NCBI GenBank assembly: GCA_004294445.1
Contig: REAZ01000007.1
Location: forward strand, 62,001 to 126,000
Direction of reading: 5' to 3'
Length of the DNA stretch: 64,000 nucleotides
Origin: Cytophagales bacterium
GTDB lineage: Bacteria > Bacteroidota > Bacteroidia > Cytophagales > Thermoflexibacteraceae
Both the position numbers and the translations under genes were made by a program. Shown piece after piece: positions 34,113 to 64,000 of the stretch (position 1 is the stretch's first letter; the number at the start of each line of letters is the position of its first letter). The notes below the pieces were generated by a model. The model saw only the letters and a list, made by a program, of their open reading frames with translations, made no database searches and was not told the origin of the DNA.

Positions 34113-37100
34113 CTAAAACCCAACTCTCACCCCAAAAGAAACTGCTTTTGGCGCGGGAACAGAGAAGTAGTCAAAGCCTACCGCACCACTACCACGAGCA
34201 GAAGCGTTCAAGCCGTTTACGTCAGGGTCTGCACCCGTATAGTTTGTTGATAACCAAAGATTTGTACCTGTTATGTTGAAATCTAAACTCTTGATAACCT
34301 TAGAATCAGCAAACATAGTTTTCGGCAAAGTATAGCGGAAAGTAATATCACGCAGCCTTAGCCAACGGATATTTTTCTCGATAAACTGCTCCTCAATCAA
34401 TCCCGAAGGGTTTGCTCCACCTAAATAGTTACTAAAATAGGCTTGCGTAAGCTCTACTTCTTGGGTATTTGGCTGACCGTCCGACTGCCTTACACCCTCG
34501 AATATTCTGCGAGTGCCTCTGTCCAAGGTGCGTGTTCCCAAGCCAAAATTGGTCAATGCCCAATCCGTACCGTTGAAAATATCGCCACCTACACGCAAAT
34601 CGAGCAAGAAAGACAAGGCAAAATTTTTGTACTTTACAGCATTGGTAAGACCTAAATTGAACAATGGTTGGCGATTTCCTATCAATTTGTAGTTCAAATC
34701 TCTGACAGGGAAGCCATTTGCTCCTATCAGCGCATTGCCATTGGCATCTCTGGCGATAGAATTTCCCGTAATTGTCAAGATAGACTCCCCTGGTACGTAG
34801 CCTGCTCTTGCACCGCCCGCAAGCCAAGTGTCTGATAAATAGAACTCTGTAAAATCACCTGGAAGAGAAAGCACCTTATTTCTATTCAATGCAAAGTTAG
34901 CAATGATGTCCCAAGAGAAATTTTCTTGGCGAATAGGCGTACCCGTTATCATTAGCTCTACTCCTCTGTTTTCTACTTCGCCCGCATTTACCAACTGCAA
35001 AATATAGCCACTTGCGTAGCTCAAACGAGGCTGGGTAATTTGGTTTTTACTTGACAAACGATAATAGGTAAAGTCAATTCCCAAACGATTATTAAAGAAT
35101 TTCATGTCCAAACCGACTTCATAAGAAGTGGTAGTTTCTGGGACAATCTTAGGGTTGGGACCAAAGAAACCAATGTTATAGCCGCCGCCCGTTCTTGTGA
35201 ACTCTTGCAAGGCGGGTAAAATTTGGTGCGGAGGTGCGTCCTTGCCTACTTGTGCATAGTTTGCCCTTATTTTAGCAAAAGAAAGTTTGCCCGCAGGGTC
35301 TATGTCGAATAATTCTGAAAGCACAATGCTACCCGTTATAGATGGGTAAAAGAAACTACGGTTTTCGACGGGTAACGTGGAAGACCAGTCATTTCTGCCC
35401 GTAACAGAAAGGAAAATCATGTTTTTATAATCTACCTTGAACTCCCCAAACACACCTACTAAGTTTCTTTGCGTGCCACGCGTTGCTTGTTCGCGGCGTA
35501 GGGCGTTGGTATTGCTAATGCTTGGCAAATCAGGCACTAAGAATCCTTCTCCGTAGCGAGAATCTACACGATAGTTAGTCGTGAAAAGGTTATGCCCAAA
35601 GGTCAATCCTGTGTTGAAATCGCCAAATTTTTTTTTGAAATTGAATAACAAAAAAGTATTGATGATGCGGCTTTTTTCTTCATACTCGGAAAGAATCCCG
35701 CCAACTACCCGCGAAATGCTTTTATTAGGGAATCTTGCCCAAGAAAGTGGGTCATAGACGGTTTGTCCCGTAGTGTTGTACCAGTCTACGCCTACTCTGC
35801 CTACAATATTGAACCAACTCGTAACGTCATAAGAAAGGCTACCATTCAGAATAAAGCGGTTTGTAACGTCTTTTACTCTGTTTTTCTGTGCGTTAAAGTT
35901 CGGATTGTCAAACACATCATCAGCAGAACCATCGCCATTTGCATCAGGAATAACACCTACCAATCCGCCTGAATCATTTTGCCAGTTGTTAATGTCGCGA
36001 GTGCGCGGATACAACAGGGTATTGTAATAAACGCTACCTACACCCTTTGTAACAGGCGAACGGTCTGTATTTGAGTTGATGTAATTCACTGAGGTCGTGA
36101 GTTTTATCTTTGGGCTTAACTGTACCGAATTACTCATTTTGAAAGTATTTCTGCCAAAGGCTGTATTAGGGATAGAACCATTTTGTCTTAAAATATTTGC
36201 AGAAACGTTATAAGTAAATATTTCATTTCCGCCGCTTACGTTCAAGTTATGTATATTGTTAAAACCCCAGCCAAACACGCTTTTTAAGTTGTCGTACCTT
36301 GGTGTGCCTTCGGGAATTGCTGCTCCCCATGCCCCTATCACTGTGTTTGGGATAGCTGAACCTGCCACTACGCCCGATGTTCCAGAGCTAAATCCATAGA
36401 CATCTTGAGTTTTTGGGAAGCGCGTAATCCTCTCAAACTGTAGGTTGCCTGTGTATTCTATGCGAGTTTTGCCTTTTGCTCCTTGCTTCGTAGTGATGAC
36501 AATCGCACCCGCCGCCGCATCGATGCCATAAAGTGCCGCCGCCGCAGGTCCCTTTAGTACCGTAATGCTCTCAATATCATTAGGATTCAAGTCTGCTATA
36601 CGGTTAGTATAGTCAGAGTTGCGGTTTGGCGCGTCATTGAGTAGCAAGCCTTCGGAAAGTGTATTATTACTTACAGGTACGCCGTCAATCACGAAAAGCG
36701 GCTGATTATTGCTACCCAAGGAAGTAGCCCCACGAATAATAATAGAAGAAGAAGAACCCGGCAAGCCACCTGTTGTCCCTACAGTAACCCCTGCAATTCT
36801 GCCTTGCAAAGCGTTTACTACGTTCGGTCGGTTCGTTTCTGCCAACTCCTCCCCTTTGATTTCTTGGATAGCATACCCCAATTCTTTCTTTTCCTTTTTG
36901 ATGCCAAAAGAAGTTACTACTACTTCATTGAGTTGGCGAGTATCCACTTTCATCGCAAAGTTAATCTCCGTACGATTTCCTATTGCTATTTCTGCTTTTT
37001 GGAAACCAATAAAAGAGAAAACCAAAGTAACGGCATCTTGAGGTACGCTAATTCTATAGCTTCCATCAACATCTGAGATTACGCCAACAGACGTACCTTT

Positions 37101-37262
37101 GACGGTAATATTCACTCCTGGAAGCGCACTGCCATCTTCCGAAGAGCTTACTTTCCCACTGATGACTCTTGCTTGCCCAAAGACGTAAGCCTGATGGCTA
37201 AGACTTTGAAAAACAAACAATAACATCAGAAGTGAAAAACATTTTGTAAGTGTTTTTTTCAT
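34113..37262 (-). CDS. SusC/RagA-type TonB-linked outer-membrane transporter (second copy)
   Basis: 1049 residues. The signal peptide is about 30 residues (ending VFGQA). The carboxypeptidase-regulatory-like domain spans about 32-115 (VISGKVSSSEDGSALPGVNITVKGT). The plug spans about 115-275, with VVTSFGIKKEKKELGYAIQE, LFVIDGVPVSNNT and ESITVLKGPAAAALYGIDAAAGAIVITTKQG. A long 22-strand barrel follows, ending in KAVSFGVRVGF. It works with the SusD-like_2 lipoprotein encoded just downstream. It differs clearly from the first SusC, so the two pairs are paralogues of different specificity and not a recent duplication. Confidence 0.95.
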   Translation of the reverse strand: MKKTLTKCFSLLMLLFVFQSLSHQAYVFGQARVISGKVSSSEDGSALPGVNITVKGTSVGVISDVDGSYRISVPQDAVTLVFSFIGFQKAEIAIGNRTEINFAMKVDTRQLNEVVVTSFGIKKEKKELGYAIQEIKGEELAETNRPNVVNALQGRIAGVTVGTTGGLPGSSSSIIIRGATSLGSNNQPLFVIDGVPVSNNTLSEGLLLNDAPNRNSDYTNRIADLNPNDIESITVLKGPAAAALYGIDAAAGAIVITTKQGAKGKTRIEYTGNLQFERITRFPKTQDVYGFSSGTSGVVAGSAIPNTVIGAWGAAIPEGTPRYDNLKSVFGWGFNNIHNLNVSGGNEIFTYNVSANILRQNGSIPNTAFGRNTFKMSNSVQLSPKIKLTTSVNYINSNTDRSPVTKGVGSVYYNTLLYPRTRDINNWQNDSGGLVGVIPDANGDGSADDVFDNPNFNAQKNRVKDVTNRFILNGSLSYDVTSWFNIVGRVGVDWYNTTGQTVYDPLSWARFPNKSISRVVGGILSEYEEKSRIINTFLLFNFKKKFGDFNTGLTFGHNLFTTNYRVDSRYGEGFLVPDLPSISNTNALRREQATRGTQRNLVGVFGEFKVDYKNMIFLSVTGRNDWSSTLPVENRSFFYPSITGSIVLSELFDIDPAGKLSFAKIRANYAQVGKDAPPHQILPALQEFTRTGGGYNIGFFGPNPKIVPETTTSYEVGLDMKFFNNRLGIDFTYYRLSSKNQITQPRLSYASGYILQLVNAGEVENRGVELMITGTPIRQENFSWDIIANFALNRNKVLSLPGDFTEFYLSDTWLAGGARAGYVPGESILTITGNSIARDANGNALIGANGFPVRDLNYKLIGNRQPLFNLGLTNAVKYKNFALSFLLDLRVGGDIFNGTDWALTNFGLGTRTLDRGTRRIFEGVRQSDGQPNTQEVELTQAYFSNYLGGANPSGLIEEQFIEKNIRWLRLRDITFRYTLPKTMFADSKVIKSLDFNITGTNLWLSTNYTGADPDVNGLNASARGSGAVGFDYFSVPAPKAVSFGVRVGF

Positions 37263-37365: not shown

Positions 37366-38535
37366 CTACAAAACAAACGGCTGCGGAGAAAAACACAAAA
37401 TAAAAATGAGCAATGCCAGCCATCCCAAAATTTTTCTTTTAAGGTCTAAAGGGTGTTCATGCTTAGTAGGCGGGTGATATATGCCTAAAAAGTTGCCAAG
37501 TACAAAACCAAAAACTAACCAACCCGAATAACCTTGCACCGTTGGGAAGAGGTAAGTAACTAAAAGCTGTGCGGTAAAAATACTAAGGGCAATGGTAATT
37601 GGCGTTATTTTATTTTTGAACGATTTTTGGAAAACAAAATATAAAAAACCAATATAGGCAAGTACGTACCAAATTGTGTCTATTGTTACTTCTGAATGAG
37701 TAAAACTACCAATACCCGCATAAAAAATGAAAGCAATGAAAAGAATCAAGGAAATAGCTTTGTGCTTCTTGAACCCGATAAGCCCGTAAAGGATATGACC
37801 GCCATCTAACTGACCAATAGGAATGAGGTTAAGTGCGGTGAAGAAAAGTGCCAAATACCCTGCAAACAAATAAGGATAATGTGCCATTTCGTACATATTT
37901 GGGATTAATTTGGGGTCTTCAGCTACATAGCGTTTGAAAAACTCAAAAACTAAGTTTGTGCCTAAACCAAGCGCCCCAAAGGTGTTTTTGTAAACATGGT
38001 CGGCGTATCTGAAGCCAAATTGCTTGTATTCAGGGTGAATCTCAAAAATATATTCGGGTGGCGGTAGGTGCGTAAAACCGTACCACAGCACTCCTAAAGC
38101 CACAACAAAGCCCGCCAGCGGTCCCGCTATACCTACATCAAAAATTTCTTTTGTAGATTTAAGGCTTTCCCTTATTTTAATGAATGCCCCCATAGTCCCG
38201 ATGGAAAGTGTGGGCAAAAAACCAAGCCATACAGGAATATAAAAAGGCAGGGAAACATTTATTTTGTAGTATTTGGCAGTAAAATAATGCCCGAACTCAT
38301 GCGCAGTCAGGATGCCCAAAAAGGGAACAGAAAAATAAAGTCCTGCCCAAAAATTACTGAATCCTAAGAGCTTTGTGCCATAGAAAAATGACCTACCCGT
38401 CATCCACTCTGCACCTGCCAAAGTAGTGCTTATCAAGGTGATAAAAAATAAAAGCAAGTGCAACCAATATTTATTTTGTGGTTTTTCTGGCTCTTGCGAA
38501 AAGAATTTATCATTGATGCTGTAGTCTTCGTTCAT
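37366..38535 (-). CDS. Site-2 protease family (M50) membrane metalloprotease
   Basis: 389 residues with about eight hydrophobic segments. The zinc site is HEFGH (H79-E80-H83) inside the third helix (GILTAHEFGHYFTAKYY), and the third ligand is in NLIPIGQLDGGH (N236, P239, L243-D244-G245), both complete. It lacks the PDZ domain of RseP-type members; the compact architecture with a C-terminal membrane region resembles the EGY1/plant-type or YwhC-type branch. It would cleave membrane-embedded segments, for example an anti-sigma factor. It starts 14 bases after the ZnuD-like receptor gene, so both share a transcript. Confidence 0.9.
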   Translation of the reverse strand: MNEDYSINDKFFSQEPEKPQNKYWLHLLLFFITLISTTLAGAEWMTGRSFFYGTKLLGFSNFWAGLYFSVPFLGILTAHEFGHYFTAKYYKINVSLPFYIPVWLGFLPTLSIGTMGAFIKIRESLKSTKEIFDVGIAGPLAGFVVALGVLWYGFTHLPPPEYIFEIHPEYKQFGFRYADHVYKNTFGALGLGTNLVFEFFKRYVAEDPKLIPNMYEMAHYPYLFAGYLALFFTALNLIPIGQLDGGHILYGLIGFKKHKAISLILFIAFIFYAGIGSFTHSEVTIDTIWYVLAYIGFLYFVFQKSFKNKITPITIALSIFTAQLLVTYLFPTVQGYSGWLVFGFVLGNFLGIYHPPTKHEHPLDLKRKILGWLALLIFILCFSPQPFVL

Positions 38536-38549
38536 TGATTTTTAGATTT

Positions 38550-40931
38550 TCAAAAACTCATTTTAATCCTTAGAGATATATTTCTTCCTATTTCATCGGA
38601 AAAATAGCGAAAACGGTTCATATAATCTCGATAAACAGTGTTAAATACGTTATTTACTTGCAGCCCTATTTGCATTGGTACATTTTCTTTTTTGCCAATT
38701 TTATCTTTCTTTCCTACTGATAAAGAGGTACTTATATCCAAATTTGCCAAACCATAACTCTTTGGCGGAGTAGCATAATCGCTTGCAATAGGGACTCGTT
38801 TTTGCTCAAAAACAGAAAGATAGCTCACCGAAAATATAATGTTTTTCATTTTTCTCCAACTATCTATTTTATAAGAAACTTCATTTTCTACCCTATTAGC
38901 AGGAATAAGTACCAAATAAGCATCATCACGCCGATTATATGCCCAAAGGAATGAACCTTTCGCCTCCCAACTTACTGCCGAAGACAAAGGTACTACTATT
39001 TTTGTATCTATTCCCCTAAATATCGCATCCGTTTGCGTATAGGCGAAAGAAGGGAATGCCCCACGAATGGTAAGCACTTCTGGAAATTGAGGCTTTAGGT
39101 AGATATAATTGTTGATATGGTTATAGTAAAGCACCATCTCGAAAGTCAATTTTGGGTGAGCGTAGTTAAAAGTAGTGCTAAGGTTATAGGCAACTTCGGG
39201 AGTCAAATTTTCATCTCCTTTCTCAAAGGAGGCAGCTCCATGATGCACGCCGTTGCTGAAAAGTTCGTTGATATTGGGCGGTCGCCAAGCTGTAGCGAAG
39301 TTGGTATGCCATTCTATATTTTTGTTTATCTTGTAGTTTGCTCCGATAGTGGTTGAAAAATTATTAAAAATTCTTTCTATACTTCCTACACTTCCGTTTT
39401 GCAATCTTTCAAAAGTTTTAAGCCACTTATAGTCGTATCTGAAACCAAGTTCAAGTTCGTATTTAGACTTTGTAAGACGCTCTATCCAAAAAATGCCACC
39501 ATTGTAACTTCTAAAATTAGGGACTAAAGGGCGACCTTGGTAAATATTAGTCTGTCGGGTGCCGCTCGCGCCTATACTGCCCGTAATTGCTCCTAAAAGC
39601 GGTTTATGTTCAAAAATAAGGTCTAAGGTATGTGTATTGAGTTGGAAATTAAGTTCGGGTTTGTTTAGCCTCAGCAGAGAGTCGTTCAAAGGGCGATGGG
39701 CATCGTACTCTTTGCGAAGATTGACCTGCAAGGCGTAGGTAGTGGTTATTTTTCCCCAGTTATCAAACTTTAAAAAAGCATTGATTTTCAATAAATTATG
39801 GCTTACATCTTGGAAAGGTCTGTCTATCTGATAAGAAAAATCGCTTTTGATAAAAGGTTCCCCGCTTTCAATCACACGCCTCAGGTCAGTCAGATTGCCA
39901 ATGTGCGCCCCCGAAAAAATGCCTATCTGAGTGCTAAATCTGCTAAAGAAGGCTTCTACTCCCCCATGGTATTTCTGGTAGCCCAAAGCGGCAGAAAAAT
40001 TTATTTCCTTCAACCCTGTGTTAGCAAGGTAATAGTTTGGCGTTCTGATATTTCCACTTCTTTTGAGCGTGCCTTGTATTCGCCACGCCACGCCGCTTAC
40101 TTCTTGTTTTTTCTTTGTGTTTCCCTCCAAAATTCCAGAAAACGTGCCTTGCCTACCATTACTTATGCCTATCAAATTTACTTCCCCCGCCATTCCCTTT
40201 TCAGAAGGCAGACTTTTTGGAGAAAGAATAATCACCCCACCTATGGCATCCGAACCGTATCGGACACCTGCTGCTCCTTTTACGACAGAAATATTTTGAG
40301 CAACAAATGGATCTACTTCGGGGGCGTGTTCTGACCCCCACTGCTGTCCCTCCTGCCTTACGCCATGGTTAAGAATGAGTATTCTATTGCTATGAAGCCC
40401 ATGGATGACGGGCTTCGAAATAGAATTACCTGTTTGTAAGCTATTTACCCCTGTAATTGTTTTGAGCATCTCACCCAAATTTTTGCCTTGGGTTTGAGAA
40501 ATTTCTATTTCTGAAAGCTGGGTAGCGGGCTGCCCTACTTGCACGTCTGCCAAGGATGCCGCCTGAATGGTAATAGCCTCTAATAAAATGCTATTTTCTT
40601 CCAAGCGAATTTTCAAAAATAAAGACGTATCTAACTGAATTTGAAGTTTCTGACTTTCGTAGCCCAAAAAACTCACCCGTATTACATACCTTCCTTTGCA
40701 AAGATTTTCGTACTGAAAGTGTCCATGGCTATCTGCAAGTGTGCGTTTATTTGCCTCTTCGATGAAAATGCTCGCCGAAGGTAGCCCCTCTTGGCTATCC
40801 GCACTATATATATGTCCACTCAGCCTGTAGTTACATTGTTTGCTCTGAGCAAAAATAGGAACACATACAATTAGGAAAAATAGAAATAGCGTACAAAAAA
40901 CGCAATATTTGAAACTCCTTTGTGCAATCAT
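38550..40931 (-). CDS. TonB-dependent receptor, ZnuD-like
   Basis: 793 residues with signal peptide (MIAQRSFKYCVFCTLFLFF..., ending IFAQ), a carboxypeptidase-regulatory-like domain (about 34-115, LSGHIYSADSQEGLPSA), a plug (about 118-240) and a beta-barrel ending ISLRIKMSF. The plug segment PVIHGLHSNRILILNHGVR followed by SEHAPEVDPF, with V-x-K-G-A-A-G-V-R-Y-G-S-D-A-I-G-G after it, matches the pattern of ZnuD zinc receptors (P-V-I-R-G-L, D-H-A-x-x-V-D-P). Histidines there could bind metal. Substrate is most likely zinc or another metal or metal complex. The promoter overlaps a perfect inverted repeat. The gene lies between DUF2480 and an M50 protease gene in one minus-strand run. Confidence 0.88.
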   Translation of the reverse strand: MIAQRSFKYCVFCTLFLFFLIVCVPIFAQSKQCNYRLSGHIYSADSQEGLPSASIFIEEANKRTLADSHGHFQYENLCKGRYVIRVSFLGYESQKLQIQLDTSLFLKIRLEENSILLEAITIQAASLADVQVGQPATQLSEIEISQTQGKNLGEMLKTITGVNSLQTGNSISKPVIHGLHSNRILILNHGVRQEGQQWGSEHAPEVDPFVAQNISVVKGAAGVRYGSDAIGGVIILSPKSLPSEKGMAGEVNLIGISNGRQGTFSGILEGNTKKKQEVSGVAWRIQGTLKRSGNIRTPNYYLANTGLKEINFSAALGYQKYHGGVEAFFSRFSTQIGIFSGAHIGNLTDLRRVIESGEPFIKSDFSYQIDRPFQDVSHNLLKINAFLKFDNWGKITTTYALQVNLRKEYDAHRPLNDSLLRLNKPELNFQLNTHTLDLIFEHKPLLGAITGSIGASGTRQTNIYQGRPLVPNFRSYNGGIFWIERLTKSKYELELGFRYDYKWLKTFERLQNGSVGSIERIFNNFSTTIGANYKINKNIEWHTNFATAWRPPNINELFSNGVHHGAASFEKGDENLTPEVAYNLSTTFNYAHPKLTFEMVLYYNHINNYIYLKPQFPEVLTIRGAFPSFAYTQTDAIFRGIDTKIVVPLSSAVSWEAKGSFLWAYNRRDDAYLVLIPANRVENEVSYKIDSWRKMKNIIFSVSYLSVFEQKRVPIASDYATPPKSYGLANLDISTSLSVGKKDKIGKKENVPMQIGLQVNNVFNTVYRDYMNRFRYFSDEIGRNISLRIKMSF

Positions 40932-40965
40932 GTTGCAAAAGTATCGTTATTGCAACATGATTGCA
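40923..40965. repeat. Perfect 16-bp inverted repeat over the ZnuD-like gene start, probable operator
   Basis: TGCAATCATGTTGCAA at 40923-40938 and its exact complement TTGCAACATGATTGCA at 40950-40965, with an 11-base spacer. The left arm contains the start codon (40931-40929) and overlaps the -7 box; the right arm lies between the -33 and -7 boxes and touches the -33 box. It also contains three TTGCAA-type units. Its place and symmetry suggest a dimeric repressor site, and in the RNA it would form a strong hairpin. Confidence 0.8.
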
Positions 40966-40967
40966 AA
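40936..40967 (-). promoter_or_regulatory. Consensus promoter directly at the start codon of the ZnuD-like gene
   Basis: On the minus strand TTTG (40967-40964), 20 bases, then TACTTTTG (40943-40936). The start codon begins only four bases after the -7 box, so the transcript would start at or within a few bases of the ATG and be essentially leaderless. The operator repeat covers most of the promoter. Confidence 0.65.
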
Positions 40968-40976
40968 ATAAATTTA

Positions 40977-41519
40977 TTAATTTTTTGGTTTTGGTTTTTT
41001 GTAGATAGGCACTGTGCTACAGGGTTCTCCGTACATGATAGAATTTGCTAAAGGTCGCAATCTTTTGGTTATTTCCACGTAGGCAGCTACAGGTACGGGA
41101 TGTTTGCTACAGCCTTTGATGACAACTTTTGCATCTTGAAATTGTGCAAAATCTATATTTGCTATTGCCTCTCTGAAAAGGATGTTTTCTAATTCGTCCA
41201 AATTCCCAAAGATGACCTTTTTTGCAAAGGGTTCTAACTGAGCCGCTAAAAGCATATAAGCCCAAACAGGTACTATAGCGTCTGCCGAGCAAGTAATAGC
41301 GATATTTTTAGCCTTGTATTGGCTCCATTCATGCGTTTTGATGAAATCTCTGAAGTCTTTTTCTTTGAGTAAAAGTTCTTGGAAAAGGAGTGGCTTTAGG
41401 TCAAACAATACTCTTTCAGCATGGTCGTAATATTCTTCTAAGTCCAAAGTGAGTAGCCCGCTATTTGCTACTTTGTTAATGATTAGTTCTTCTTGGTACA
41501 GTGTATCTTTGGTTGTCAT
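40977..41519 (-). CDS. DUF2480 family protein
   Basis: A 180-residue soluble protein of a family I know only from Bacteroidota. Conserved stretches seen are IINKVANSGLLTLDLEEYYDH (key start N14-K15-V16-A17), EKDFRDFIKTHEWSQYKAKNIAITCSADAIVPVWAYMLL, VVIKGCSKHPVPVAAYVEIT and PLANSIMYGEPCSTVPIYKKP. Conserved cysteines (C75, about C139, about C168) may be metal ligands or catalytic. Function is unknown. It follows the SPOR-domain gene by 12 bases and precedes the ZnuD-like promoter by about 10 bases. Confidence 0.85.
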   Translation of the reverse strand: MTTKDTLYQEELIINKVANSGLLTLDLEEYYDHAERVLFDLKPLLFQELLLKEKDFRDFIKTHEWSQYKAKNIAITCSADAIVPVWAYMLLAAQLEPFAKKVIFGNLDELENILFREAIANIDFAQFQDAKVVIKGCSKHPVPVAAYVEITKRLRPLANSIMYGEPCSTVPIYKKPKPKN

Positions 41520-53249: not shown

Positions 53250-56200
53250 TTACCTTTGAACAGTTAGGAAACCGACTTTTGGTTTCTGACCGTTTCGGAA
53301 ATCGACAATGTAATAATACGTACCATCGGGAACGCCTTCACCTACCAAAATACCTACAGTTGCTACTGCATTCCAAGTGTTTTTGTAATGCTCGTCTTCG
53401 TAAATCAGATTCCCCCAACGGTTGAATATTTGGACTTTGGTATCAAAACGTTCTGCCCCTTTGATGACAAAATTATCATTTACACCATCACCGTTTGGCG
53501 AGAAGCCTTCGGGTATAAAGGTGTCTTGGCAATCCAATACGTCCACATATATTTTGGCAGCACCACATTTGCTCAAAGCGGAAACGCTATTGCAAGCCTC
53601 GTAGCTCAAGCTATCTCTGCCAACAAAACCTTTTGGAGGTAAGTAAGAGAATGTGCCATCTGCTGCTATGCTATACACACCACCGCTTACGGTCAGTCCG
53701 TTCGTAACTGCTTTGGCTTTCAAGGCTGTGCCGTTAGGGTCTGTATCATTAGTGAGTACATTGCCAGTTACTTCGGTGCAGTTGTCCGTACCAAATACAT
53801 CAGGTCTGATAACAGGCGGTTGCGAAGTACAAGCTAACACATTGATATAGATTTTACCCTTAGCACATACATTGATGCTGTTACAAATTTCGTATTCTAA
53901 ACTATCCAAACCTACTGCATTCAGGGCAGGGCGATAAATCATTGTACCATCTGCACTGATAGAAACTATACCCCTTAATGGCGTTACCGTATTTGGTAAA
54001 AGTGTGATTTTCACTAAGCCACTGTTTTGCAATATGATTTTCTGCGTCAGAATCGTACTTGAGCAATTATCCGTAGTAAATGAGAACCGAGTCGGTATTG
54101 GCGTTGCAATAGTTTCGGGCTGCAATACGAAAGTTGTTGGAACATCTTCGCTTGGGTTTCCATCTCCGTTAGGGTCAGGGTTAGTACCTTCGGAAGAGTT
54201 GTCCGTAACGGGGATACCGTTTACTGTACCCGTGCCTATAGCCGTATTTCTGTATGTAGCTCCGTTTGCATTTGGTATCACATTGACCGTAAAAGTAATA
54301 ATTTGTGATTCGCCAATGCCTAATCGACCGCTACCGTTTAGCAAGTTATTATTTCCTGCTCTGCCTGTATAATTTGGATTAGTTGTTAGGTTGCCAATAG
54401 AAGTTGGCGCACTAATTACCCTAAATGTAGCAGGTGCAGGGAAAGTTGCTGTCAAGTCATCTATTACTTGTACGTTAGTGATTTCGGCGTTTCCGTAGTT
54501 TCTCACACTGATTTGATAAGTAAAATTATAACTTCCATCTGCCTGTCTGATTGGTGTGAGCAAGTTTTTCGCTACGCCTATCAGAGGTCTGTTATTGTTA
54601 TTATTATTGTCAGTTGGTACGGTGAAAATTGTAGGAGTTTCCTCTCTTGGGTCGCCATCATTGTCGGGGTCAGGGTTTAGCCCGTCTGTAGAGCTATCCG
54701 TTGTTGGTATTCCTCCGTTTTCACCTCTGCCAATAGCCGTATTTCTGAAAGAAGCACCTATCGAGTTTGGTATCAGATTTACGGTGAAAGAGATAGATTG
54801 TCTTTCGCCAATGCCCAAACTACCACTTGAAAGTAAATTGATATTATTTCCTGTCCCTGTGAAACTGCTATTTCCTACCAATCCGCCTGTGGCTGTTGGT
54901 GGCGTTACGATACTAAACTGTGCAGGACTTGGGAATGTAGTTGCCAAATTATCAGTTACTTGTACATTTGATAGGGCTAAATTTCCATAATTCCTCACCG
55001 TAATCAAGTAGGTAAGGTTGAAACTGCCGTTTGCTTGACGTACCGCAGAAAGCAGATTTTTCGCTATGCCTATTCGTGGACTGCTCGCAGGGATTCTCAG
55101 TACCGTTGGGATGTTCTCGTCAGGGCTACCATCTCCGTTAGGGTCAGGGTTTAAGCCGTCTGTAGAGGCATCGGTTACTCTATTTGTCCCATTTTCACCA
55201 CTCCCTACGGCAGTATTTCTATAGAAAGCATTTGTCGCATTTGGCGTTAAGTTTACGGAGAAAGTAACTGTTTGCGTTTCTCCTATTGCCAATGAACCAC
55301 CATTCAAAAGATTTGCATTGCTTCCGATGCCCGTAAATGCTGCGTTTGCAACCAATGTTCCTGTAGCAGTAGGTGCATTTGTTATTCTGAAAACAGCAGG
55401 AGCAGGGAAAGTAGCTGTCAAATCATCAGAAACTTGGAGGTTGTTCAAAATTACGTTTCCATAATTTCTCAATGAAATTGAATAACTTACGTTATAGCTT
55501 CCATCAGTTTGCCTTGCTACTGTCGATATAGATTTGGCTACACCAAGCAACGGTCTGCCACTATTGTTATTATTATCTGCTGGCAAAGTAAACGGAGTAG
55601 GACTTTCCTCTCTTGGGTCGCCATCGCCGTTAGGGTCTGGGCTTGTTCCATCAGAAGAATTGTCTGTTACTCTGCCTGTACCTCCATCGCCGCTTGCTAC
55701 TGCTGTATTTCTGTAAGTTGCATTACTGCTGGCGTTTGGTATCAAGTTTACAGTTAAGACTACATTTTGCGATTCCCCAACTGCTAATCTTCCACCGTTT
55801 ACAAGGACATTATTTCCACCTGTGCCTGTATAAGCAGCGTTTGTAGTCAAACTTCCTGTTGCCGAAGGCGTGCCTACAGTGCTAAACTGGGCAGGGCTTG
55901 GGAAAGTAGCATTCAAATCATCAACTATCTGAACGTTAGTAAGGTCTATGTTTCCATAGTTGCTTACTGTCATCTGATAAGTGATGTTGAAACTGCCGTT
56001 CGCCTGTCTGCTTGTTGAGAATAGATTTTTTGCAATACCGATTCGTGGGCGGCTCAAATTAGGAGGTAATGTAAATACTGTTGGCGTATTTTCTCTTGGG
56101 TCTCCATCATTATCGGGGTCGACACTTACGCCGTCTGTAGAGCGGTCAGTAACCACTGTAGTTCCTCTTTCTCCCCTTGCGATGGCTGTATTTGTATAGT

Positions 56201-59200
56201 TTCCATTGAGTGCGTTTGGAATTAAATTGATAGTAAAAGAAACAGTTTGCGTTTCTCCTGCTGCCAATCTGCCAAAGCCTGTTAGTAGATTGGGATTTGC
56301 TGCCGTTCCTGTGTAAGATGTATTTGCTAAGAGTACGCCCGTAGCCGTTGGTGGCGTTACAATGCTGTAACGTGCAGGTGCAGGGAATACCGTAGTCAAA
56401 TCGTCATTTATTTGTATGTTAGTCAGTTCTGTATTGCCTAAGTTACGCACAGTGAGCAAGTAAGTTACGTTCACACTGCCGTTTGCTTGGATAGCAAGCG
56501 GTAATACTGTTTTTGCCAAACCAATACTTTGCTTTTCGCATACTCTTACAGTTACTACTCCTTTGTCGGCAAGTTCTACTGGAGTACAGTTCACGCCGCC
56601 CACAGTTGGAATTGCAACAACGGTATAGGTTGTTGTGCTTGTTGGGGCAGGGCTGACCGTAAATGTAAGGTTGCTACCTGTTCCCGTTTGCGTAGCTACT
56701 ATGCTATTGTCCGCTCTCCTTAGTTCGTATCTTACGCCATTTTGTGTACCGCTTATATTCACCGTAGCTGAAGGCGGAACCTGATTATCGCAATATTCCG
56801 TATCGCTTACTGATGCACTTGCATTGGCAGGGGTAACTCCTATAACATTAATGGTTACATCTGCGGTATTGGTAGCACAAGCAGTGCCTGTTACTGTCCA
56901 TCTGAATATATAAGTGCCTACTGTTAAAGCAGTTACAGAGGTATTAGGGGCAGCACTGTTGGCAAATGTTGCACTGCTCGGACCCGAAACTTGCGACCAA
57001 GCTCCTACACCTACTACTACTGGTTTTGCATTCAATGATAAGTTTGAACCCAAGCAAATGGTTTGTCCTGTGCCTGCGTTTGGTATTTCGGCATTTACTA
57101 TGGTTACTTCGCTAAATAGATTTGGACAAGCAACGCCCGTTATCGTCCAACGGAATACATAAGTGCCTGCTTGCAAACCGCTTACCGTTGGGTTGGTAAT
57201 GCCTGTATTGCTGATGCTTGCGATGCCCGGTCCTAATATTTGTGTCCAGAGTCCTATACCTGCTACGGGAGCGGTGGCAGACAAAGTAGTAGATGTTACC
57301 CCGCATAGATTTTGGTTAGCTCCTGCACTTGTTGGGGCAGAAACATTGATGACTACTTGGTCGTTTGAGTTTCCGCAGATACCACCTGTAAATGTCCATT
57401 GGAAAGTATAAGTACCTGTAATTAAGCCCGTTACTGTTGAAGTCGCTAAGTTTGAATTTGTAATCGTTGCAGGATTACCACTTATTTGTGTCCAAGTACC
57501 TGTGCCTGTAATGGCTGTATTTCCTGCCAAAGTTACCGTAGTAACGTTACAAACTGCTTGGTCTGCCCCTGCGTTTGCATTTTCAGAAACTCTCACCACT
57601 ACATCATCAGTGGAAGGCGTACAAGCAGAGCCTGTTATCGTCCATCGGAAAGTATAAATGCCTGTTTGCAAATTAGTTACAGTTGCATTAAAGACATTTC
57701 CACTGAAATTAGCAGTGCTTGGTCCTGTGATTTGCGACCACGTTCCCATGCCTGTAGTAGGTGCAAGAGCGTTTAAGTTTACCGTTGTTACATTACACAC
57801 GCTAATATCTACCCCAGCATCGGCGGGTGAAGAAACCAAAATGGTCATTTGCGAATTTGTTGTTGGGCAGGAGCCACCTGTGATTTCCCATTGGAATATG
57901 TATGTACCATTGGTAAGACCTGTTACAGCAGTTGTTGGAGAATTTGCATTGGCAAACGTACCGCCTGCGGGACCGCTTATCTTAGTCCAAGTGCCTGTAC
58001 CTGTAACGGGGGTATTCCCTGCCAAAGTAGTATTGCCTACCCCGCATAAGTTCTGATTAATACCTGCGTTGGCGGGTGCTGAATTTGTGATGACTACATC
58101 ACTAAAAGTAGTAGCACAGCCGCCGCCAGAAATAGTCCAACGGAAAGTATAAGTGCCAGCCACTAAACCTGTAATTGTAGAGTTCGGCGAATTGGGATTG
58201 CTAATCGTAGCAGCTGTGCCTGCGGTTTGCGTCCATGTTCCTATTGCACCGCCTAATGGTGTATTTCCTGCTAAAGTTGCCGTAGTAACATTGCAAAGTG
58301 CTTGGTTTACACCTGCATTGGCATTTGGTGCTACTGTTACGGTCATGCTTTGTGGGACAAGGGCAGGGCAAGGCGTTCCTGAAATTGTCCATGTGAAAGT
58401 ATAAACCGTTCCAACGCTTAAGCCTGTTACTGTGGAAGTTGGAGAAGTTGGCGTAGTTATCGTAACTCCTGCATTAGGCGAAACTGTCCAAGTTCCTGTT
58501 CCTATGACTGGTGCTGTAGCGGCTAAGGTTGTGTTTGTTGTGTTACAAATTACTTGATTTACCCCCGCACTTGCATTGCCAACTACATTGATAATTACAT
58601 CATCAGTAGTTGTTCCGCAAGGGCTACCCGTAACTGTCCAACGGAAGGTATAAGTACCTGTAGTTAAGCCTGTTATTCCTGAATTTGGAGAGTTTATACT
58701 ACTAATTGTGGCGGTAGCTCCTGATACTTGAGTCCAAGTTCCTGTTCCTACTACAGGCGTATTTCCTGCCAAAGTAGCTGTAGTTACACTACACAAATTT
58801 TGGTCTGTTCCTGCATTGGCTGGCTCTGCTACCCTTACAATTACGTCAGAAGTAGAAGGCGCACAGCTTCCGCCTGTCAATGTCCAACGGAAAGTATAAG
58901 TCCCTGTTGTTAAACCATTTACTGTTAAGTTTGGCGTGTTGGCATTGACTAATGTTGCCACTGCTCCCCCTACTTGCGTCCATGCCCCTGTTGTGCCTAC
59001 TACTGTATTTCCTGTGAGGTTTGTAGTAGTAACGCTACATAAATCTTGGTTTGCGCCTCCATTGGCAGTAAATGCTAATGGAATGACAGAAACTGTAACT
59101 TGTGCCGAAGAAGTTGGGCAAGTGCCATTGGCAATTGTCCAATTAAAGGTATAATTTCCTGCTAAAGTAAGTCCTGAAACTATGGCATTCGCTTGGTTTG

Positions 59201-62200
59201 CATTATTAAAAGCAACTGTTCCTACAAAGCCTACAGGTGCAGAAGCCAATGTCCAAGTGCCTATGCCTACTGTTGGAACATTACCGTTTAAGGTAGCAGA
59301 GTTAGCACAAATAGATTGATTTGTCCCTGCATTGGCTACGGTTGGCACGTCTTGGCGTGTAATCGTTACATTTGCAGAAGTAGCTCCACACGAATTTGTA
59401 ATTGTCCAACGAAAAGTATTTACACCAACGGTTAAGCCCGTTACACCTGATGTTGGGTTATTTGGGTCAGTTACCGTTGCTCCGCCCGCAATTACTGTCC
59501 AAGTCCCTATTCCTACTGTAGCGGTATTTCCTGACAAAGCAGGGAAAATATCACTACAAACAGTTTGATTTGTGCCTACAGTTGCCACAGTCGCAGGGGT
59601 GTCCCTTGTGATGCTGACTTCGGCAAAGCTACTGCCACAAGAGTTTGAAATAGTCCATCGGAAGGTATTTATGCCTAAACTCAGCCCTGTTACACCCGAA
59701 TTTGGATTATTTACGTCTGTTACGGTGGCTGTTCCTGCGGTAACTGTCCAAACGCCTGCTCCTGAAGTTGGTGCGTTACCAGTAAGTGCATTAAAGAAAG
59801 TATTACAAGTAGTTTGGTTCGTACCTGCGGCAGCTGTAGTCGGTGCAATCTCACGAGTAATCGTTAAGAAGGCATCTGTAAATCCGCAAGTATTTGAAAT
59901 TCTCCAACGGAAAGTATTTACGCCTGTAGTCAACCCTGTTACTCCCGAAACTGGATTAGTTGGGTCAGTAATGCTTGCTCCCCCTGCGGTAACTGTCCAT
60001 GCACCCGTACCTACTGCTGCTACATTTCCTGTTAAAGTGGCTGTGGTCAAACAAGTCGTCTGATTTACCCCTACAGTGGCTATGGTTGGTGCTGCTGTCT
60101 TAGTAATTGTTACACTTGCCGAAGTAGTACCGCAAGCATTTGATATTGTCCAAGTGAAAGTATTTATACCATCTACTAAACCTGTTACGCCAGAGGCTGG
60201 GTTAGTTGGGTCAGTAACAGTTGCACTTCCTGCGGTTACTGTCCAAACTCCATTGCCTACTAAGGCTGTATTTCCTGTTAAAGTCGCCGTAGTCAAACAA
60301 GTCGTCTGATTTACACCTACAGTGGCTACGGTCGGTGTAGCTGTTTTAGTAATCGTGATACTTGCTGAAGTAGTGCTACAAGCATTTGATATTGTCCAAG
60401 TGAAAGTATTGATACCATTTGATAAACCTGTTACGCCTGAATTTGGGTTGTTTACATCTGTTACGGTGGCTGAACCTGCCGTAACCGTCCAAACACCTGT
60501 TCCCACTGTTACTGTGTTTCCTGTTAAATTTGCTGTAGTCAAACAAGTCGTCTGATTTATCCCTACGGTTGCTACGGTAGCAGGACTACTGCGAGCAATA
60601 TTTACACTGCTCACTGAAGGCGGGCAAGTGCCATTTGAAACTGTCCATTGGAAAGTATTTACACCCAAACTCAAATTAGTAACAGTGCTATTAGGTAAGG
60701 TTGGATTGGTAACTACACCTGTTCCTGCGGTTACTACCCAAACTCCTGTCCCTACTGTTGGCGTATTTGCTGCCAAAGTATAAGTAGCATTACAAGTAAC
60801 TTGGTCTGCTCCTGCAAAAGAAGTGCTTGGAGGAGCTTGACGAGTAATGATGACATCATTAAAAGAAGTTGGACAAGTGCCATTGCTTGTTGTCCATCTC
60901 AATATGTTGTTTCCTACAGAAAGATTGATGACTTGGGAATTTGCTAAGGTAGGATTAACCACTGTGGCTGTCCCTCCTATTACTGTCCATGCACCTGCGC
61001 CAATTGCGGGTGCGGTTGCCGCTAAAATAGTATTATCTGCACATATTGTTTGGTTTGCCCCCGCAACTGCTACAGAAGAAGGTGTTTGACTTGTAATTAT
61101 TACATCATCAAAAGAAGGCGTACAAGTAGCACCATTCGAGATTGTCCAACGGAATGTATTAGTTCCTGCTCCTAAGCCATTTACTTGGGTATTAAATTGA
61201 CTTGCACTCACAAAAACTCCCGAACCACTCACTACTGTCCAAGCACCAGTCCCTGCTGTAGGCGCATTTCCTGAAAGTTGTGCGGTTGTCGAACAAACAG
61301 TTTGGTCTGTTCCTGCATTGGCAGGTGTTACATTGTCGTTTCTTGTAATTACTATAGAAGAAACAGAAGTAGCACAACCATTGGAAACAGTCCAAGTGAA
61401 TTGGTTAAACCCGACCACTAAATTAGTAGCGACAGCAGTTGGATTATTAATATCTGCTGGGGCAATAGTAGCTCCTCCTAATACAGACCAAGTACCTGTT
61501 TCACCTGCGGCGGCATTTGGCACGTTTGCATTAAGGTTATAAGTTGCACCGCATATTGTTTGACTAACACCCGCTACTGAAAGGCTTACTGCTCCTCTGC
61601 CTGTTAAAGTTACATCAGAGAAATTTCCTGCTGAGGGGCAGACACCATTCGTTACAGTCCAACGGAATACGTTAGCTCCTAAACCTAAGCCTGTTACCTG
61701 TGTAGTAGGACTATTTGGGCTGATGATAGCACCACTACCACTTATTCTTGTCCAAGTTCCTGTGCCTGCGGTTGGTACAACTGCATTTAAGAAACCATCA
61801 GCCGCACAAGCAAGGGCATTTGACCCTGCATTGGCAGTAGAAGGTGTTGCAAAGCTATTGACTAATAAATCTGCACTCGAAGATGCGCAAGTTCCATTGG
61901 TAATAGTCCATCTAAATCTATTGATACCAGGGGTCATTCCGCTTACCGTAGAATTAAATTGGTTAGGGAAATTTACAGTTGCGCCACCTGCAACGACTGT
62001 CCAAGTTCCTGTGCCTATGGTAGGGTTATTTCCTGTCAATGTGGTCGTTGCACCACAAATATCTTGTGTTGCGCCTACAGTAGCGATAGTTGGCGGTGCA
62101 TTTATAGTAATATATACTGTGCTTGTTGAATTTGGAAGGCATGGTGCGTTAGCAATAGTCCAAGTAAATCTATAAACTCCATTTACGGTTAATCCGCTTG

Positions 62201-64000
62201 CTGTTGCATTGGCTGCATTAGCATTTGAGAAACTCACGGTTGCTCCTGCGGGCGCAACTACAGACCAAGTTCCTGTTCCAAAAGCGGGTGTGTTCCCATT
62301 TAATGTGTACGAAGTCGCACAAATCGTCTGAGGGCTACCTGCACTTGAAACAGTTGGCGGTACATCTCTTGTTACTCTTACATTTGTAGATGAAGGCGTA
62401 CAAGCATTGCCATTCCTTATTGTCCATGTGAAAAAATATTCTCCGCCTACTGTCAAGCCGCTTACGGTGGCAGTTGGGCTATTAATATCACTGAAAGTAA
62501 TTGCTCCTGCCCCGCTCGGTACGCTTTGTACTGTCCATGTCCCTTGTCCTACTGTTACTGCGGTCGCTGCCAATACTGTGTTGTCTGCACAAATCGTTTG
62601 ATTCGCTCCTGCTACTGATGCACTTGGCGGTGCGGTAACAGCGATTTGAACCGTAGCGGAGTTAGAAGCACAAGTACCGTTAGTAATTGTCCAACGCAAT
62701 ACATAATTTCCTGCTACATTAAAGCCATTGGCAACTGTGTTTGATAAATTTGCATTAACAAAGGTTACATCTGTGAGATTCGCTCCTGCTGGAACACTCA
62801 CTACCGACCAAGTTCCTACCTGCGTCCCTGTTGGCGCACTTCCGCTTAGGGTTGTACTTGGTGTTGTTTGACATAAAGTTTGATTCGTTCCTGCACTTAC
62901 AGTTGGGACATTATCTATTCTCTCAATCTCTACGTCAGAAACAGCATACGAGCATCCTGCTGCTGTTCCATAACCGACTCTCCAAGTGAATTTATTAGAC
63001 CCTAATGCCAAGCCCGAAACTGTAATGGTAGGCGTGCCGTTTGGCCCATTTAGCGCACCCAATGTACCAGAAACTAAGGTTGTTCCCGGTGCCAATGTCC
63101 AAAAAAAGTTAGTTTCAGTAGTAGGTGTATTTGCTTGTAAAGTTACTGTCGAAGCACATTGGATAACAGGAAGTCCTGCGTACGCATAGGCGTTATTGCT
63201 ATTGCTCGTAATGCTTACATCATCGGAAGTGCTTGCGCAACCTCCGCCAGTGCTTACTGTCCACCTTAGTACGGTTGTTCCCACTTGTAAGTTGCTAATC
63301 AAAGAATTAGGCGAAGTGTCATTAGAGAAAATAGGTAAACCACCTGAGGGAGAGCTAACGATTGTCCATCTGCCCGTAACTCCTGCTGGGAGTACATCTG
63401 CACTTAGGGCTGTAACATTTGCACATAAAGTCTGGTCGGTGCCTGCTACTGCTGCGGGAGGATTAGGGGAAACGGTAATGTCCACAAAAGCCGATTTTGA
63501 ATCGCAACTGTTAGAAATTCGCCATTCAAACCTATTTAAACCCGTAGAGAGTCCACTTACCGTAGTATTGGGATTTGTGTCTGATGCGAAAACGCCAGAG
63601 CCAGACGTTACGAACCAACGCCCTGTGCCTATGGCGGGTGTATTTGCCGAAAGCGTGGCGGTGGTAACATTACAAAGATTTTGACTACCGCCTACTGATG
63701 GCGCACTGACAGGCTGCTCCCTTGTAATAGTTACGTTAGTGCTTGTTGTTCCACAAGCATCTACTATTGTCCAAGTAAAAGTATTTGCCCCAAGAGCCAA
63801 ATTAGAAACTGTAGATGTAGGCGAGTTTATATTTGCAATGATGGCACTCCCTGAAGTTGTCCAAGTACCTACACCTCCGTTTATGGGCGTATTGCCGCTT
63901 AAGGTAGCCGTTGTAGCACAGACAGCTTGCGGTAGCCCTGCATTAGCAGTATTACCCCCCGCTATTCTGGTAACAGTCATCTGTGAAGTAGAAGTAGTAC
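53250..64000 (-). CDS. Giant multi-repeat adhesin-like protein with type-B T9SS sorting domain, 5' end outside the window
   Basis: More than 3580 residues visible and the frame still open at 64000, so the N-terminus is missing. From N to C it has about 28 Ig/PKD-like repeats of 80-90 residues (with A-G-x-N-Q-T-x-C, G-x-W-T-V and N-T-F-x-W-T-I-S-N-x-x-C signatures). Then come a linker domain (about 2375-2480), five DUF11-like repeats of about 160 residues (about 2480-3290, each ending in a D-P-x-x-D-G-D-P acidic motif) and two cadherin/Ig-like modules (about 3290-3485). It ends in a CHU_C gliding-motility C-terminal domain (about 3488-3576, FIPEGFSPNGDGVNDNFVI and GTYYYIVDF). It is predicted to be exported through T9SS with the adjacent PorP/SprF. 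Function is probably adhesion or gliding, by analogy to SprB-like proteins. Confidence 0.93.
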   Translation of the reverse strand, partial: TTSTSQMTVTRIAGGNTANAGLPQAVCATTATLSGNTPINGGVGTWTTSGSAIIANINSPTSTVSNLALGANTFTWTIVDACGTTSTNVTITREQPVSAPSVGGSQNLCNVTTATLSANTPAIGTGRWFVTSGSGVFASDTNPNTTVSGLSTGLNRFEWRISNSCDSKSAFVDITVSPNPPAAVAGTDQTLCANVTALSADVLPAGVTGRWTIVSSPSGGLPIFSNDTSPNSLISNLQVGTTVLRWTVSTGGGCASTSDDVSITSNSNNAYAYAGLPVIQCASTVTLQANTPTTETNFFWTLAPGTTLVSGTLGALNGPNGTPTITVSGLALGSNKFTWRVGYGTAAGCSYAVSDVEIERIDNVPTVSAGTNQTLCQTTPSTTLSGSAPTGTQVGTWSVVSVPAGANLTDVTFVNANLSNTVANGFNVAGNYVLRWTITNGTCASNSATVQIAVTAPPSASVAGANQTICADNTVLAATAVTVGQGTWTVQSVPSGAGAITFSDINSPTATVSGLTVGGEYFFTWTIRNGNACTPSSTNVRVTRDVPPTVSSAGSPQTICATSYTLNGNTPAFGTGTWSVVAPAGATVSFSNANAANATASGLTVNGVYRFTWTIANAPCLPNSTSTVYITINAPPTIATVGATQDICGATTTLTGNNPTIGTGTWTVVAGGATVNFPNQFNSTVSGMTPGINRFRWTITNGTCASSSADLLVNSFATPSTANAGSNALACAADGFLNAVVPTAGTGTWTRISGSGAIISPNSPTTQVTGLGLGANVFRWTVTNGVCPSAGNFSDVTLTGRGAVSLSVAGVSQTICGATYNLNANVPNAAAGETGTWSVLGGATIAPADINNPTAVATNLVVGFNQFTWTVSNGCATSVSSIVITRNDNVTPANAGTDQTVCSTTAQLSGNAPTAGTGAWTVVSGSGVFVSASQFNTQVNGLGAGTNTFRWTISNGATCTPSFDDVIITSQTPSSVAVAGANQTICADNTILAATAPAIGAGAWTVIGGTATVVNPTLANSQVINLSVGNNILRWTTSNGTCPTSFNDVIITRQAPPSTSFAGADQVTCNATYTLAANTPTVGTGVWVVTAGTGVVTNPTLPNSTVTNLSLGVNTFQWTVSNGTCPPSVSSVNIARSSPATVATVGINQTTCLTTANLTGNTVTVGTGVWTVTAGSATVTDVNNPNSGVTGLSNGINTFTWTISNACSTTSASITITKTATPTVATVGVNQTTCLTTATLTGNTALVGNGVWTVTAGSATVTDPTNPASGVTGLVDGINTFTWTISNACGTTSASVTITKTAAPTIATVGVNQTTCLTTATLTGNVAAVGTGAWTVTAGGASITDPTNPVSGVTGLTTGVNTFRWRISNTCGFTDAFLTITREIAPTTAAAGTNQTTCNTFFNALTGNAPTSGAGVWTVTAGTATVTDVNNPNSGVTGLSLGINTFRWTISNSCGSSFAEVSITRDTPATVATVGTNQTVCSDIFPALSGNTATVGIGTWTVIAGGATVTDPNNPTSGVTGLTVGVNTFRWTITNSCGATSANVTITRQDVPTVANAGTNQSICANSATLNGNVPTVGIGTWTLASAPVGFVGTVAFNNANQANAIVSGLTLAGNYTFNWTIANGTCPTSSAQVTVSVIPLAFTANGGANQDLCSVTTTNLTGNTVVGTTGAWTQVGGAVATLVNANTPNLTVNGLTTGTYTFRWTLTGGSCAPSTSDVIVRVAEPANAGTDQNLCSVTTATLAGNTPVVGTGTWTQVSGATATISSINSPNSGITGLTTGTYTFRWTVTGSPCGTTTDDVIINVVGNASAGVNQVICNTTNTTLAATAPVIGTGTWTVSPNAGVTITTPTSPTSTVTGLSVGTVYTFTWTISGTPCPALVPQSMTVTVAPNANAGVNQALCNVTTATLAGNTPLGGAIGTWTQTAGTAATISNPNSPNSTITGLVAGTYTFRWTISGGGCATTFSDVVITNSAPANAGINQNLCGVGNTTLAGNTPVTGTGTWTKISGPAGGTFANANSPTTAVTGLTNGTYIFQWEITGGSCPTTNSQMTILVSSPADAGVDISVCNVTTVNLNALAPTTGMGTWSQITGPSTANFSGNVFNATVTNLQTGIYTFRWTITGSACTPSTDDVVVRVSENANAGADQAVCNVTTVTLAGNTAITGTGTWTQISGNPATITNSNLATSTVTGLITGTYTFQWTFTGGICGNSNDQVVINVSAPTSAGANQNLCGVTSTTLSATAPVAGIGLWTQILGPGIASISNTGITNPTVSGLQAGTYVFRWTITGVACPNLFSEVTIVNAEIPNAGTGQTICLGSNLSLNAKPVVVGVGAWSQVSGPSSATFANSAAPNTSVTALTVGTYIFRWTVTGTACATNTADVTINVIGVTPANASASVSDTEYCDNQVPPSATVNISGTQNGVRYELRRADNSIVATQTGTGSNLTFTVSPAPTSTTTYTVVAIPTVGGVNCTPVELADKGVVTVRVCEKQSIGLAKTVLPLAIQANGSVNVTYLLTVRNLGNTELTNIQINDDLTTVFPAPARYSIVTPPTATGVLLANTSYTGTAANPNLLTGFGRLAAGETQTVSFTINLIPNALNGNYTNTAIARGERGTTVVTDRSTDGVSVDPDNDGDPRENTPTVFTLPPNLSRPRIGIAKNLFSTSRQANGSFNITYQMTVSNYGNIDLTNVQIVDDLNATFPSPAQFSTVGTPSATGSLTTNAAYTGTGGNNVLVNGGRLAVGESQNVVLTVNLIPNASSNATYRNTAVASGDGGTGRVTDNSSDGTSPDPNGDGDPREESPTPFTLPADNNNNSGRPLLGVAKSISTVARQTDGSYNVSYSISLRNYGNVILNNLQVSDDLTATFPAPAVFRITNAPTATGTLVANAAFTGIGSNANLLNGGSLAIGETQTVTFSVNLTPNATNAFYRNTAVGSGENGTNRVTDASTDGLNPDPNGDGSPDENIPTVLRIPASSPRIGIAKNLLSAVRQANGSFNLTYLITVRNYGNLALSNVQVTDNLATTFPSPAQFSIVTPPTATGGLVGNSSFTGTGNNINLLSSGSLGIGERQSISFTVNLIPNSIGASFRNTAIGRGENGGIPTTDSSTDGLNPDPDNDGDPREETPTIFTVPTDNNNNNNRPLIGVAKNLLTPIRQADGSYNFTYQISVRNYGNAEITNVQVIDDLTATFPAPATFRVISAPTSIGNLTTNPNYTGRAGNNNLLNGSGRLGIGESQIITFTVNVIPNANGATYRNTAIGTGTVNGIPVTDNSSEGTNPDPNGDGNPSEDVPTTFVLQPETIATPIPTRFSFTTDNCSSTILTQKIILQNSGLVKITLLPNTVTPLRGIVSISADGTMIYRPALNAVGLDSLEYEICNSINVCAKGKIYINVLACTSQPPVIRPDVFGTDNCTEVTGNVLTNDTDPNGTALKAKAVTNGLTVSGGVYSIAADGTFSYLPPKGFVGRDSLSYEACNSVSALSKCGAAKIYVDVLDCQDTFIPEGFSPNGDGVNDNFVIKGAERFDTKVQIFNRWGNLIYEDEHYKNTWNAVATVGILVGEGVPDGTYYYIVDFRNGQKPKVGFLTVQR
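54110..56530 (-). repeat. Five DUF11-like repeats inside the giant protein gene
   Basis: Five units of about 480 bases starting with I-G-x-A-K and running through N-x-T-Y-x-V-x-V-x-N-Y-G-N and an acidic D-P-(D/N)-x-D-G-(D/S/N)-P-x-E. They are similar, not identical, in DNA. The acidic loops resemble thrombospondin-type-3 calcium-binding loops. Confidence 0.8.
56830..64000 (-). repeat. Array of about 28 Ig-like repeats inside the giant protein gene
   Basis: Units of about 245-290 bases, each with two cysteines (one in N-Q-x-x-C near the start and one in S-N-x-x-C). Inside it, 60046-60560 has near-identical units with an exact 246-base period: GTCAAACAAGTCGTCTGATT recurs at 60046, 60292 and 60538, marking recent duplication. 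Confidence 0.85.

Follow-up and report, generated by a model that had tools for sequence, protein, structure and literature searches.

A probable Zur-type double operator over the promoter and start codon of a TonB-dependent receptor gene

In the 64-kb stretch of DNA analysed here (the window), the 45-bp gap on the minus strand between a DUF2480 gene (stop at 40977) and the ATG of a TonB-dependent receptor gene holds both a promoter and a long inverted repeat, which raises the question of what reads this repeat and to what effect. A preliminary description had placed the promoter, TTTG-N20-TACTTTTG, on the minus strand with the ATG four bases past the -7 box, and had reported exact 16-bp inverted arms reaching from the -33 box to the start codon. 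Both statements agree with the coordinates (Table 1): an N20 spacer (40963-40944) separates the promoter elements, CAAC (40935-40932) lies between the -7 element and the ATG, and the arms, TGCAATCATGTTGCAA (40923-40938) and TTGCAACATGATTGCA (40950-40965), are exact reverse complements around an 11-nt spacer. We propose, with a probability of roughly 0.83, that this is a double operator for a zinc-sensing repressor of the Fur family (Zur), lying across the promoter of a gene for an outer-membrane metal receptor, a reading in which we infer the binding protein, the metal, the direction of control and the exact start.

Table 1. Features of the receptor locus, in positions of the window
Feature	Position	Strand	Remarks
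TonB-dependent outer-membrane receptor, 793 aa, ZnuD/haem-receptor-like	38550..40931	-	Pfam Plug, TonB_dep_Rec, CarbopepD_reg_2
M50 family membrane metalloprotease	37366..38535	-	begins 14 nt past the receptor
Operator box 1 (distal), TTGCAATCATGTTGCAA (40966-40950) plus flank	40949..40966	-	overlaps the -33 TTTG; exact motif match
Operator box 2 (proximal), TTGCAACATGATTGCAC	40922..40938	-	starts within the -7 element and includes the start codon
-33 element, TTTG	40964..40967	-	N20 spacing kept in the sister species (L020)
-7 element, TACTTTTG	40936..40943	-	fused to box 2
Predicted transcription start	40931..40932	-	at or about 2 nt from the A of the ATG; inferred from the -7 position (consensus PMC7366714)
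Receptor start codon, ATG	40929..40931	-	inside box 2

Among perfect inverted repeats of at least 14 bp with a loop of at most 30, the two arms are the sole case in the window, and ten Markov-shuffled windows contained none, the longest there being 12. Each arm is a dyad by itself, TTGCAA-N5-TTGCAA, and the receptor ATG falls within the second; the dyad is 15-17 bp long, its form TTGCAAY-NNN-RTTGCAA fits both TTGCAATCATGTTGCAA and TTGCAACATGATTGCA(C), and its core is GCAAYNNNRTTGC. The perfect palindrome first described as operator-like is real, but it is two operator boxes and not one, separate from each other, 28 bp apart and one per promoter element. The ATG can be taken as the receptor start since an in-frame TAA stands just upstream (40949-40947) and the signal peptide follows immediately downstream, with no other in-frame ATG, GTG or TTG before the end of that peptide. 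The M50 protease gene is probably co-transcribed with the receptor. Downstream of both, on the same strand, a SusC-like TonB receptor of 1049 aa occupies 34113-37262, and one open frame of 3576 aa spans 53250-63980 on the minus strand of the window. At none of the 29 receptor orthologue loci of relatives do the DUF2480, SPOR or M50 protease genes lie beside the receptor; the box therefore belongs to the receptor, and the repeat does not belong to the 3' end of DUF2480.

The pattern TGCAAYNNNRTTGCA, searched with 0 mismatches, has five sites in the organism's own genome, two of them the window pair, and 7, 10, 4, 3 and 2 sites in five relatives, whereas the same pattern read backwards has no match in any of these genomes. 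As reversal is a mild control that does not preserve dinucleotides, we also ran shuffles and positional controls. With at most one mismatch, a box was found at 21 of the 29 receptor orthologues, scanned from 280 bp upstream to 40 bp inside the matched start, where shuffles predicted 0.065; no boxes were present in stretches of the same length taken within the gene and 600-900 bp upstream, and six of the 29 have no box within two mismatches in the 280 bp scanned. A second set of 78 orthologues from named genomes (Dyadobacter, Larkinella, Runella, Emticicia, Algoriphagus and others), which partly overlaps with the first, carries a box at 29 against 0.06 expected. The loose motif TTGCAA-N5-TTGCAA, with 59 one-mismatch matches, was dropped for the YNNNR version, and its 13 two-mismatch matches in the window are no excess over the 9.9 expected. 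Several sites were judged unconvincing as promoters, namely one with no correctly oriented gene close downstream (G005 C11), two whose downstream genes have no known zinc link (G005 C33 and G006 C21) and one within a gene (G005 C52). An inverted pair at G009:C58:15854-15909, a longer inverted repeat with box-like arms and GCGAGC/GCTCGC ends, was also rejected as a regulon site, as it looks like a longer and perhaps repetitive palindrome unrelated to the regulon.

FolE paralogues are classic zinc-limitation genes. COG0523 GTPases behind Zur sites are likewise an established feature of zinc starvation (PMC2770081). Of the other three sites in the own genome, the first precedes a small secreted protein and then a ZigA-type COG0523 GTPase (576 bits against the ZigA model, cut-off 600), the second a MerT-like protein, whose cluster also includes a DUF4625-like lipoprotein, and the third has an FtsX-type permease downstream. 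Among 90 proteins behind boxes in relatives we counted 15 of MerC type, 12 of the Fur family, six each of DUF4625, thioredoxin-reductase-like and TonB receptor type, five of cobW/ZigA type and three GTP cyclohydrolases I, where some of these genes lie on the far side of a divergent site and may be outside its control. Recurrence at other metal genes had been put forward as a check on the idea of a zinc- or metal-responsive operator, and this idea is now well supported by the three own-genome operons and, in relatives, by boxes before receptor, MerC, cobW, folE and fur-family genes. Since the genes behind the box form a zinc regulon, it can be sharpened to a Zur operator of Bacteroidota. The own assembly is only 62% complete, so that some regulon members and repressors may be missing from it. 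In three loci (L122, L126 and L161) the GTP cyclohydrolase I paralogue is second in the operon behind the box, after a MerC-like gene. FtsX/MacB-type permeases, candidate zinc-linked transporters, stand behind a box in the own genome (L082, 2397-3602) and at L164 (3-791), there with an ABC ATPase.

In E. coli, the core bound by one Zur dimer is RNNNYxxxRNNNY (PMC4219657). The preliminary description could not match the repeat to a Zur box with certainty, a reservation since overtaken, as the core GCAAYNNNRTTGC, i.e. GCAAY-NNN-RTTGC, fits this skeleton, which is loose and by itself gives weak support. In each of the 11 genomes searched, a single long Fur/PerR-type protein is encoded alongside one or more short proteins of the Fur family. 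The long protein, a separate gene from the short one, scores about 98-106 bits against the FUR model where examined; the short proteins carry, in 11 of 11 genomes, a CxxC...CxxC arrangement and a further cysteine (C80 in L017) aligned with Cys88 of E. coli Zur, which PMC4219657 describes as the best conserved site-B residue of Zur proteins. The candidate Zur, L017 (G000:C24), combines the Fur fold, the CxxC/CxxC structural site and the site-B cysteine. Its best match among curated models is Zur (NF008646), a model of the E. coli type, although at 35 bits it falls far below the cut-off of 167, and its profile scores are 52.1 bits for PerR and 52.0 bits for Zur; by sequence alone the candidate short Fur protein is indistinguishable from PerR. 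Two genomes have an extra short Fur gene whose promoter carries boxes, and in one of these (G027) a box pair precedes the gene and the receptor comes directly after it. The C15 Fur match L018 was discarded as a Zur candidate, its sequence reading as a BlaI-type protein.

With regard to the receptor, the best-scoring NCBIfam models belong to the haem-receptor family and not to ZnuD: TonB-hemin gives 143 bits and ZnuD (NF038289) 115 bits against a cut-off of 950, both below cut-off. The label ZnuD-like used earlier holds for the regulon and not for the sequence, and as the protein falls short of the curated ZnuD model we call it ZnuD-like in regulation without classing it as ZnuD; a role as a zinc (metal) receptor is proposed.

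At 33 of 71 gene-proximal boxes, the TTTG of the -7 element TAnnTTTG is also part of the box, compared with four of 71 on the opposite side, and a TTG stands at N19-21 upstream of the -7 in 24 of the 33 fused boxes; the boxes thus overlap a predicted promoter, as Zur operators do. The spacing of the boxes is explained by this fusion, since box 2 as a rule starts in the -7 element and covers the transcription start while box 1, where there is one 27-29 bp away, falls on the -33 element. Because box 2 of the window also includes the ATG, a bound repressor should sit on the promoter, the start of transcription and the start codon at once. In the control that we propose, each dyad would be the site of one repressor dimer, box 1 placing one on the -33 element and box 2 placing the other over the -7 element, the start of transcription and the ATG. 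When zinc is plentiful, the zinc-loaded repressor would occupy both boxes and keep RNA polymerase off; when zinc drops, it would depart, and an mRNA beginning at or next to the AUG would allow the receptor to be made.

The same double operator might instead be read by a Fur-family sensor of iron, nickel or manganese, or by a redox sensor, with the receptor importing haem or another metal. We regard this as unlikely, even though the receptor scores best with haem-receptor models, the candidate repressor ties between PerR and Zur, and a thioredoxin-reductase-like gene lies near some boxes, because the regulon includes FolE paralogues as well as ZigA/COG0523 GTPases, the short Fur proteins keep the Cys88-type ligand, and the Fur/PerR-type protein with its high FUR scores is a different gene. 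Still less probable, and in our estimate very improbable, is that the inverted repeat works as RNA, either as a 3'-end hairpin of DUF2480 or as a structure hiding the AUG in a longer receptor leader. The arms do fold into a stable 16-bp stem (-23.7 kcal/mol) that begins 11 nt past the DUF2480 stop codon and includes the receptor AUG, but the repeat has no U-run and no terminator is called there, DUF2480 and SPOR accompany none of the 29 relatives' receptors, a long hairpin is missing from most regulon sites, which consist of a single box, and the sister species G002 retains the promoter and box 2 while box 1 is lost.

A separate matter is where the mRNA begins. The start site could lie farther upstream and give the receptor an ordinary leader, the four-base gap being accidental, which we consider improbable, if less so than the two preceding alternatives. 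Leaderless mRNAs are a minority in the phylum, at 5.5% in F. psychrophilum, with leaders shorter than 10 nt at about 3.7% in B. thetaiotaomicron, and so a leaderless receptor mRNA would be uncommon yet known; moreover, the distance from -7 to ATG in other fused boxes is at least 14 nt (mostly 14-123 nt), and is 4 nt only in the window and in G002. Against an ordinary leader, G002, whose receptor is 70% identical, keeps TTTG-N20-TATTTTTG-CAAC-ATG-ATTGCA, an exact TTTG-N20-TAnnTTTG-CAAC-ATG, despite the loss of box 1 and an otherwise different upstream region. The ATG also lies mid-box at two further receptor loci, L044 (TTGCAACC-ATG-TTGCAA) and L251 (TACTTTTGCAATC-ATG-TTGCAA), and in L251 the -7 box comes directly after a strong intrinsic terminator hairpin (-22.6 kcal/mol, z -7.35), with the ATG five bases on, which makes a long leader unlikely there. 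In the window, the receptor lies no more than about 45 bp from the upstream gene, although it may be co-transcribed from there. Taken with the -7 fusion, the promoter conserved in G002 and the L251 terminator lend indirect support to the earlier claim of a messenger starting at or near the ATG; the receptor mRNA is likely leaderless or nearly so, from a predicted start site. Elsewhere, ORFs at L078 (1824-2438), L137, L057 and L034 start with ATGCAACA..GTTGCA, so that the box forms their first codons (MQHCC, MQQSC); these are probably mis-called starts, possibly further starts inside operators.

The two boxes of the window are also related to each other, and in this they resemble other pairs. 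Among the pairs listed (at least 109), spacings cluster at about 23, 27-30 and 36-40 bp. Of these, pairs spaced by at most 31 bp have exactly reciprocal centres in 15 of 30 cases and a direct repeat in one, against 0.94 from random re-pairing, while at 34 bp or more the centres are reciprocal in 11 of 77 and direct in nine, with 2.3 expected, relatedness being ignored in both comparisons. For closely spaced listed pairs of the window's family, the centres are reciprocal reverse complements in 9 of 10 (0.26 expected), or in 7 of 8 when near-identical orthologues are counted once (binomial 2e-10, relatedness otherwise ignored); the effect is weaker outside this family (6 of 20 listed pairs). In G002, G005 and G009 the lipoproteins are 40-56% identical, and their promoters have three different centre pairs, all exactly reciprocal, as if changes in one arm were matched by the other. 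The G003 lipoprotein promoter (L147, G003:C191, about 1486-1590) contrasts with these inverted pairs, its two boxes forming a 39-bp tandem direct duplication that includes the flanks.

Independent boxes or dimers need no inverted-copy relation, since the three centre bases are free, and reciprocity without a fixed sequence argues for arm-to-arm pairing, as protein recognition would favour one best centre everywhere. Our tentative view, held at somewhat below even odds, is that in close Zur-box pairs of the window's family the base pairing of the arms, besides protein recognition, shapes the operator, and that with the ATG in the box one repressor would cover promoter, start and ATG. Hairpin-templated correction during replication would copy one box onto the other, or selection would act on the symmetric whole; template switching in a short-loop hairpin is a possible source of the reciprocity.

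Compared with known systems, the locus appears by its sequence to resemble the E. coli znuABC operators in the dimer core, in two dimers per promoter and in zinc-uptake targets; however, the E. coli sites overlap within one box (PMC4219657), whereas here two separate boxes are each tied to a promoter element, with TTGCAA half-sites and a Bacteroidota promoter. ZnuD-type receptors under Zur in Neisseria, Acinetobacter and Pseudomonas, and receptors of Caulobacter (PMC4176598), likewise join a TonB-dependent receptor to a Zur-type site, but the receptor of the window is only distantly alike, has an N-terminal CarbopepD_reg_2 domain and is a proposed zinc transporter. Both elements of the primary-sigma promoter of Bacteroidota, TTTG and TAnnTTTG (PMC7366714), are present at N20 spacing; here, though, the TTTG of the -7 element is also part of the operator, and four bases separate that element from the ATG, against median leaders of 24-32 nt at ordinary promoters. 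The predicted start at or next to the AUG is shared with leaderless bacterial mRNAs (PMC3160421), which are rare in Bacteroidota, and the present case differs from others in its link to a repressor box with the start codon inside. Among the open papers that we searched, none describes a zinc-repressor operator for Bacteroidota. The class of Zur-type double operators is known; the new parts are the sequence, the layout and the reciprocal arms, and the reciprocal reverse-complement centres are a new observation.

With a specific motif at hand, the zinc regulon of Bacteroidota becomes readable by sequence search, and the motif flags uncharacterised zinc genes such as those of MerC-like proteins, DUF4625 lipoproteins and the FtsX-type permease. 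A start codon inside the box makes this a layout in which regulated leaderless expression can be tested. The reciprocal box pairs, in turn, are a natural setting for asking whether mutation or selection maintains inverted repeats in operators.
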